Below, piece after piece: positions 22,637-59,541 of a DNA stretch of 64,000 nt (position 1 is the first letter of the stretch; the number at the start of each line of letters is the position of its first letter). The notes under the pieces are model-generated. The model ran no database searches. It worked only from the letters and a program-made list of their open reading frames with translations, and was not told the DNA's origin. The position numbers and the translations under genes are program-made. Source of the stretch: Bdellovibrio sp. KM01 (GTDB taxonomy: Bacteria > Bdellovibrionota > Bdellovibrionia > Bdellovibrionales > Bdellovibrionaceae); NCBI RefSeq assembly GCF_013752535.1, contig NZ_CP058348.1, positions 2,418,001-2,482,000 on the forward strand, in the 5' to 3' direction.

Positions 22637-22679
22637 TCCCCGATCCCCGATCCCCGATCCCGATCCCGATCCCCGATCC
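22637..22679. repeat. Short tandem repeat of (C)CCCGAT units
   Basis: Six GAT-containing units of six or seven bases follow each other (CCCCGAT three times, CCCGAT twice, CCCCGAT). The repeat is outside any gene, in the convergent gap after the lipoprotein gene. Variable unit number by slippage is possible but cannot be seen in one sequence. Confidence 0.8.
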
Positions 22680-22710
22680 GAATATTAAGAAAGACAAGTC
22701 AGGAGCGCCA

Positions 22711-22865
22711 GCGCGACTGGCCTGAAGCAGGCCGATGGATGCCTGCACGAAGTCGACCTCCGTCGGCGCACGATGCGCGAACCGCCGCAGGCGGCGACGG
22801 TGAGCCATGGATGGCGTGTCGACGCAGCTGCAGGAAGCCAGCGGACTGATTCAGGTGAGTCGCGC
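22711..22865 (+). other. Large structured element, copy 1
   Basis: An imperfect hairpin of 155 nt. Outer arms 22711-22726 and 22850-22865 pair at 15 of 16 positions if a G-T pair is counted. Spacers of exactly 17 bases lie between arm and core on each side (22727-22743, 22833-22849) and pair with purine mismatches. The 89-nt core (22744-22832) starts TGCACGAAGTCGACCTCCG and ends GTCGACGCAGCTGCA. It contains stems GTCGAC/GTCGAC, CCGTCG/CGACGG, a GCGC/GCGC hairpin, a CCGCC/GGCGG hairpin and a small GCC/GGC hairpin. It lies between convergent genes. A near-identical core with a different but again paired outer stem is at 59165-59326. Whether it acts as RNA or as DNA is unknown. Confidence 0.85.
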
Positions 22866-22880
22866 GGGTCAAAACATGAA

Positions 22881-59043: not shown

Positions 59044-59136
59044 CCGGCAGGCACCTTTTCGAGGCGAGTCCGCAAAGCGGACAAGCCCCCCCCCCCCCCC
59101 CATCTCTCCCAGCGAGTCAGCCAAAGGCTGACAAGC
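59044..59136 (+). repeat. AAAAGGTGCCTGCC copy and two similar hairpins around a C16 run
   Basis: CCGGCAGGCACCTTTT at 59044-59059 is the inverted copy of the repeat at 56164. Then come two hairpins of one design: GCGAGTC-stem-AAA-stem-GACAAGC at 59064-59086 (stem GTCCGC/GCGGAC) and 59112-59136 (stem GTCAGCC/GGCTGAC). The stem sequences differ but each pairs perfectly. Between them is a run of 16 C (59086-59101). All are outside coding sequence. Confidence 0.8.
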
Positions 59137-59164
59137 CCGTCTGCAACTAAATGCAGTACGAGGA

Positions 59165-59326
59165 TTGGTGTCTCAAATTAAGGATTGATTGGCGCATGCG
59201 TGCACGAAGTCGACCTCCGTCGGCGCTCGGATGCGCGAACCCGCCAAGGCGGGCGACGGTGAGCCCGGATGGCGTGTCGACGCAGCTGCATGCAGGCGAC
59301 AAGCAAGCCTTAATTTGAGACACCAA
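59165..59326 (+). other. Large structured element, copy 2
   Basis: 162 nt. Arms 59165-59183 and 59308-59326 (TTGGTGTCTCAAATTAAGG and its complement) pair at 19 of 19 positions, with some pairing further out. Spacers of exactly 17 bases (59184-59200, 59291-59307) separate arms from the 90-nt core (59201-59290), as in copy 1. The core starts TGCACGAAGTCGACCTCCG and ends GTCGACGCAGCTGCA. Differences from copy 1 are in hairpin loops or form an added base pair in the CCCGCC/GGCGGG hairpin. It lies upstream of the lytic transglycosylase gene and of the MerR-DnaE gene, in a divergent gap. Confidence 0.87.
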
Positions 59327-59541
59327 GCCGCGTTCCGAGCAAGAACGTTTCAGAGTGAGAAGTTGACCCGTTTTGGCTAACTAATGATCTGACAGTGTCG
59401 ACAGATTGGTTGACAGTGCCTACCTCACATTCGCCCACATTCCATCTGAAAGACGCCTCATTCAAAGACTCAAACAATTTCACAGGCTTAACCGGTTGGC
59501 CCGCCCCCTGCACTAGTACCTAGATAACAGGAGGACGGGAT
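59327..59541. promoter_or_regulatory. Upstream region of the lytic transglycosylase gene
   Basis: About 215 bases between the structured element and the ATG at 59542. It contains GACAGTG twice (about 59390 and 59412) and a strong AGGAGG ribosome site. No other clear motif is seen; the promoter presumably lies here. Confidence 0.45.

Follow-up and report, generated by a model that had tools for sequence, protein, structure and literature searches.

A dispersed hairpin repeat in Bdellovibrio with a conserved branched tip and a covarying stem

Two similar structured elements lie in the window, by which we mean the whole stretch of 64,000 nucleotides of Bdellovibrio sp. KM01 DNA that was analysed (positions 2,418,001–2,482,000 of a genome that forms one contig of 3.96 Mb). 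They are members of a dispersed hairpin family and not an isolated pair, and the family is larger than the two copies from which a preliminary description had worked. Each copy is one long hairpin, a unit of ∼160–220 bp, in which a tip of conserved sequence sits on a stem that pairs in copy after copy. The central inference of the preliminary description, that the structure of the outer stem is kept and not its primary sequence, is strongly supported, both by 57 mostly non-orthologous copies and by compensatory changes between orthologues. Our tentative reading, whose probability we put a little short of even, is that the family is an old, dispersed, non-autonomous hairpin element whose folded + strand is recognised by a protein, more likely as single-stranded DNA (ssDNA) than as RNA.

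By BLAST, the source genome holds 27 further matches, one of which is the reverse strand of the query copy itself, and matches occur in 18 of 23 Bdellovibrio congeners. A covariance model built on the conserved tip, R1, was used to search genomes. It recovers both window copies where they had first been placed, on the + strand (Table 1), and finds ∼30 strong copies in the source genome. With this model 22 of 24 congeners, including B. bacteriovorus HD100 (genome G006, with 11–12 copies), carry the element in 2 to 32 copies each; G003 and G004 have none, and copy number among the congeners spans 0–32. The further copies on which the preliminary description had made its inference depend are thus many, up to ∼30 per genome. 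At the level of the order R1 matches in ten further genera, with the anatomy confirmed for G050 only; this member of another genus of the family has three copies built as in Bdellovibrio, basal motif included. A motif search of 85k other genomes gave chance-like single matches only, the best scoring 22.8 bits with the covariance model against 88 for real copies.

Table 1. Coordinates of the two window copies and of divergent pairs elsewhere
Feature	Position	Strand	Remarks
Copy 1, left arm of long stem	59158–59201	+	Stem of ∼44 bp; from folds; boundaries ±2 bases
Copy 1, conserved branched tip (core)	59202–59288	+	R1, 88.5 bits; alignment
Copy 1, core helix P2, 5' strand	59210–59215	+	Pairs with ∼59274–59280; consensus structure
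Copy 1, core helix P3, 5' strand	59217–59222	+	Pairs with ∼59254–59259; consensus structure
Copy 1, core hairpin P4	59223–59236	+	GCGC, loop ending in GAT, GCGC
Copy 1, core hairpin P5	59240–59253	+	CCGCC/GGCGG
Copy 1, core hairpin P6	59263–59273	+	GCC...GGC, loop ending in GGAT/CGAT
Copy 1, core helix P2, 3' strand	59274–59280	+	Consensus structure
Copy 1, right arm of long stem	59289–59333	+	From folds; boundaries ±2 bases
Copy 2, left arm	22707–22744	+	Stem of ∼38 bp
Copy 2, conserved branched tip	22745–22830	+	R1, 88.8 bits
Copy 2, right arm	22831–22869	+	Sequence and folds
Divergent pairs (genome G000)	713802/714118; 1576591/1576989; 2556553/2557000	-/+ in each	Others at loci L144, L241, L227 and L249/L250

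The copies are intergenic and have no neighbour gene in common. We therefore reject a protein-coding or gene-associated element; a recurrent cluster of open reading frames is the element itself read through. The genes beside copy 1 encode, by Pfam, a MerR-family protein and a transglycosylase (SLT), and those beside copy 2 gave no Pfam match. A run of ∼16 C lies in the intergenic DNA ∼60 bases upstream of copy 1 (59085–59101), and a short tandem array of CCCGATC type lies directly upstream of copy 2 (22638–22680), on a flank that aligns poorly with its orthologue in the congener G012. Phages, plasmids and viral_contigs gave no match, so a phage or plasmid element was likewise rejected. On informal inspection of the G000 chromosome, the quarter around coordinate 0, the presumed origin (from 3.47 Mb across 0 to 0.47 Mb), holds one copy only, and HD100 has a similar gap. 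Where two copies are closely spaced they are always divergent (- then +, 5' sides facing) in the nine pairs seen, with ∼200–350 bp between cores, and some of the partners are truncated or weak matches. These pairs recall REPIN-like doublets.

The conserved tip, of ∼80 nt, consists of helix P2 leading to a junction from which P3, bearing hairpins P4 and P5, and hairpin P6 depart. The loops of P4 and P6 end in GAT, and in most copies P5 is capped by a triloop, AAA, GAA, GCA or CAA. Tip and stem are separated by a small internal loop rich in purines. The stem has a modal length of 27 bp with a tail up to 53 bp (n = 105, some counts ending early at a mismatch) and is almost free of bulges, only 2 of the 105 copies having one or two. 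At the base, the group of G005, G020, G001 and G017 shares a conserved motif, a basal internal loop (CAAA/CCCCGC), with CAAA before ATTTGG on the left and CCAAAT then CCCCGC on the right, with 67–81% identity at each of the six CCCCGC bases; the same motif occurs in G050 and in some HD100 copies, and is much weaker in the G000 and G022 group.

In both window copies RNAfold joins the left arm with the right, as the preliminary description had proposed. The 17 bases that it had placed between arm and core as a constant distance are not a spacer: they are paired and belong to the same continuous stem, which in its inner part, in both copies, runs as blocks of 3 bp set apart by lone A.G or G.A mismatches. 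Beside the core of copy 2, G.A or A.G falls at every fourth base pair. For the arm at 22711, only eight (GCGCGACT) of the ten bases originally quoted pair; the next GG faces a mismatch.

Stem columns were analysed in a set of 57 copies, drawn from six genomes and almost free of orthologues, with reshuffled right arms as the control. Base entropy is mostly 1.6–2.0 bits, near-random, and every stem position shows all four types of Watson-Crick pair. Even so, positions are mostly 75–95% Watson-Crick, compared with ∼30% after reshuffling. Arms scored against their own partner average 26.1 and arms exchanged among copies 1.5, and the 99th percentile of the exchanged arms is surpassed by 102 of 105 copies; chance pairing of the arms is therefore excluded. 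The differences between copies that had been assigned to loops or to paired changes are so placed in the core alignment: P3 shows the exchanges C-G/G-C, U-A/C-G and C-G/U-A, and the pairs of P4 are invariant throughout 42 copies. Core cells are paired in 97.1% of cases against 87.4% when shuffled, and 84 cells are changed on both sides against 2 on one side, so that there are almost no G.U intermediates. The core covariation score is 0.242 against 0.077 for shuffled alignments, and none of 500 shuffles reaches it, although orthologous copies are non-independent and p-values, here and below, overstate significance. Covariation above shuffled or shifted controls, as used to recognise structured RNA genes, is thus present in both core and stem.

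The mismatches left in the stem distinguish the strands. With the count confined to isolated stem-internal positions (G.U 129 and A.C 97 came from loosely aligned arms, a figure we regard as unusable), purine-purine mismatches number 211 and pyrimidine-pyrimidine mismatches 8, of which A.G plus G.A make up 195 and C.T plus T.C 5; likewise, G.T occurs 54 times and A.C 10 times. Since the reverse strand would show the opposite bias, the + strand is the one whose fold is kept. Of the 57 copies, moreover, 55 fold better as this strand than as its complement under DNA parameters, and 41 do so under RNA parameters. Along the stem, purine mismatches are commonest at positions 6, 10, 14 and 18–19; their mutual spacings peak at 4, 6 and 8, and adjacent ones are avoided. 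The G.A mismatches persist between orthologues, and even flip between G.A and A.G.

In the reading that we tentatively prefer, the + strand would fold as a whole, with its conserved tip, a stem of free sequence and preferred length, and a base that is conserved in some lineages. A protein would read the fold, that is the tip and the base at a set distance from it, rather than the letters of the stem, by analogy with integron integrases on folded attC strands or HUH transposases on hairpins. The active form would more likely be ssDNA exposed during replication than RNA. New copies would once have spread as units, after which the stem would have been rewritten fast, on both sides together, partly through template switching and partly under a selection that would keep pairing, length and certain G.A mismatches. 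In favour of this reading count the varying copy number at intergenic sites that have no neighbour in common, the covariation of stem and core, the strand asymmetry, the related arms of three G020 copies, the basal motif, the divergent pairs and the losses by deletion.

The strongest rival, to which we assign a substantial but clearly less than even probability, is a multi-copy structured RNA, either a small RNA or a 3'-UTR element, in which the + strand is transcribed, the stem serves as a rigid spacer separating the conserved tip from a conserved basal loop, and selection acts on the RNA fold. The strong covariation, the near bulge-free stem of preferred length and the conserved internal loops all suit such an RNA, as do the excesses of G.U over A.C (54:10) and of G.A over C.T (195:5) on one and the same strand; indeed, the stem's excess of G.T over A.C counts against our preferred reading in being equally expected of RNA. 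RNAs, too, typically show branching of the kind seen in the tip, with internal loops rich in G.A. In the core, however, G.U occupies 2 cells among ∼980 pairs, far below what is generally known of structured RNAs, and a copy number varying from 0 to 32 between species also speaks against an RNA.

Genomic context bears on the same choice. The elements mostly adjoin the ends of genes: among 99 scored copies, with crude ORF calls, 38 lie between convergent and 9 between divergent genes. In the same set 36 copies run along both neighbours and 16 against both, which favours a transcribed element, though these are mostly orthologues and so non-independent, and G000 alone gives 13 against 6. On the other side, a search beside the two window copies gave no site resembling a sigma-70 promoter, and several copies lie beyond the terminators of the neighbouring genes. 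Eight attack-phase sRNAs have been mapped in HD100 (PMC3627812). None of the eight is sense to the element: seven on that list do not overlap the family, and the eighth, APsRNA6, runs across one copy in antisense. Beyond that overlap, the sRNAs share with the element only the organism. APsRNA6 (655 nt, with a FliA promoter; locus L227, G006 1338200–1340000) ends at an oppositely oriented half-element.

We consider DNA slightly more likely than RNA as the form in which the fold acts, no single point being decisive, because G.U is almost missing from the core, the + strand is the more stable, no mapped attack-phase sRNA of HD100 overlaps in the sense direction, the family behaves as a mobile repeat, and the P5 triloops are of a type that is very stable in DNA. 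Against the preferred DNA reading, besides the stem mismatches, clean insertions were not found and no transposase is tied to the element. Moreover, models based on lagging-strand ssDNA often predict a replication-fork bias, and the element has none (14 of 33 copies).

How the stems change is best seen in the 23 copies of the source genome that have an orthologue in G012. Substitutions per site are 0.109 in the core, 0.203 in the arms and 0.139 in the far flanks, and the divergence of arms and core is correlated (rho 0.50, p 0.016). Some stems are unchanged between orthologues, while in others both arms have been replaced throughout, still pairing, between flanks that remain ∼90% identical. 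In the pair 970151/966671, for example, only 7/25 and 8/25 arm bases are identical and 16/25 pairs are exchanged. At orthologous loci of close species (L029–L068) divergence and rearrangement are on average greater in the 5' flank than in the 3' flank (0.22–0.26 against 0.06–0.10), a contrast that stems partly from loci where insertions break the alignment.

Rewriting of this kind raises a second rival: that there is no selection on the fold, and that we see a decaying repeat family of quasi-palindromes that perfect themselves by template switching during replication. We regard this as improbable. Template switching in hairpins is known to create multi-base compensatory changes (PMC8794818), and in keeping with it the arms change at least as fast as the flanks and show many double changes and few G.U steps. 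Such a process, however, copies one arm onto the other and so would erase mismatches, whereas G.A and A.G persist at preferred positions and spacings, and flip; stem length and the lack of bulges are kept as well; and it cannot replace both arms simultaneously with unrelated sequence, as in 970151/966671. Template switching probably contributes to the rewriting of stems, and part of the complementarity of the arms may come from it in addition to selection, but it cannot keep the G.A positions or the stem length.

As to spread, three non-orthologous copies in G020 have related arms with compensated differences and flanks that are unrelated beyond ∼10 nt, and this sequence relationship suggests that the unit once spread together with its arms. 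A clean insertion, marked by an empty counterpart site or a duplicated target, was looked for and not found. Of the core-less sites, the two that were inspected still carry one arm or pieces of both, and because of these remnants they are losses by partial deletion; recent insertion into an empty site was therefore rejected.

A third proposal, that the stem acts as a guide or tags the identity of its copy, in siRNA- or CRISPR-like manner and with targets elsewhere, would suit a stem sequence that is unique to each copy and turns over fast, but is very improbable indeed, given that within searches of limited coverage (four genomes, viral_contigs and 0.8 Mb of Bdellovibrio DNA) the four genomes contain no second site for one rewritten G012 arm at up to 3 mismatches, three arm 20-mers have no match in viral_contigs, and arms match only elements within the 0.8 Mb.

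Should the heritable identity of the element be its fold, with a stem of set length whose letters are free and undergo continual rewriting in both arms, and the fold either read as ssDNA by a protein or acting as an RNA ruler, a proposition that we consider doubtful in so strong a form, the family would stand apart from known repeat families. Those are defined by sequence, and it is a common sequence by which the known interspersed repeats of bacteria are recognised; here, sequence-based repeat finding detects the tip only, and what is conserved outside it is pairing, length and the pattern of mismatches. Dozens of parallel copies in close genomes make the element a natural case for weighing selection against template switching in long hairpins, and raise the question of which Bdellovibrio factor responds to the fold. 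Were that factor a protein, a predatory bacterium would prove to have a new system for reading folds.

Among known systems, the view that no described family has this shape holds for Rfam and for the literature searched, which gave no description of the element in Bdellovibrio; the genus goes unmentioned in two large surveys of stem-loop and palindromic repeats. None of 4227 Rfam models reaches its gathering cut-off on the element, the matches being weak and sub-threshold, and a known RNA family was rejected on this ground. The sole Rfam detection was the control, the c-di-GMP-I riboswitch, whose HD100 instance lies inside the merRNA coordinates on the same strand (PMC3627812). Multi-copy RNA families in Rfam do resemble the element in having a branched covarying core, internal loops with G.A pairs and conserved loop nucleotides, but differ from it in that its core has almost no G.U.

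Resemblance to REP, BIME and REPIN sequences with their RAYT transposases (Y1, IS200/IS605-like) lies in dispersed intergenic palindromes, strand-specific hairpins, inverted pairs and the presence of Y1 genes in the genome. The preliminary description had pointed to RAYT genes, and Y1 (IS200/RAYT-type) domains do occur, 12 in the source genome (for example at L181–L184) and ten in G012. The element differs, however, in its unit of 160–220 bp as against about 20–60, in having tens of copies and not hundreds, in the unconserved sequence of its stem, in having no GTAG tag and in not adjoining Y1 genes. GTAG (or CTAC) at the hairpin base occurs in 5–6 of 94 copies on the left and 3–7 of 94 on the right, equal to shuffled sequence (5 against 5.6 expected). 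The core match is absent from all 15 Y1 loci examined, three congeners with 6–16 element copies have no Y1 match, and counts of elements and Y1 domains correlate weakly (rho 0.36, p 0.09). With the base tetranucleotide at the shuffled level and no association with Y1, we do not class the element as a GTAG-tagged REP or REPIN. CGTC occurs at the left basal flank in 10 of 94 copies against 3.4 expected, on the left side only, which may be chance or a lineage effect; this excess recalls the CGTC-tagged REP superfamily.

A MITE of DDE type does not fit either, since the arms are mostly not common to copies and direct repeats at the ends are not above chance (5.35 against 5.24). ERIC and bcr1-type intergenic repeats are hairpins of 100–160 bp whose stems keep a family sequence. 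The element shares with them size, intergenic place, tens of copies and a long imperfect hairpin, but its stems are nearly random between copies. With the attC sites of integrons it would share a mode of action, recognition through the fold of one strand, which is what is recognised in attC (PMC6393395). Unlike with attC, no cassette array was seen, and the element has a conserved tip where that of attC is variable; the boxes GTTRRRY and RYYYAAC at the base (5–10 of 94 copies) are at or below the shuffled level, and on the R-box we do not assign the element to attC. By analogy, then, it would act most like the DNA hairpins that are recognised by their fold, attC and REP/RAYT, while failing their defining sequence features, and we place it as a dispersed bacterial hairpin repeat outside any named family.
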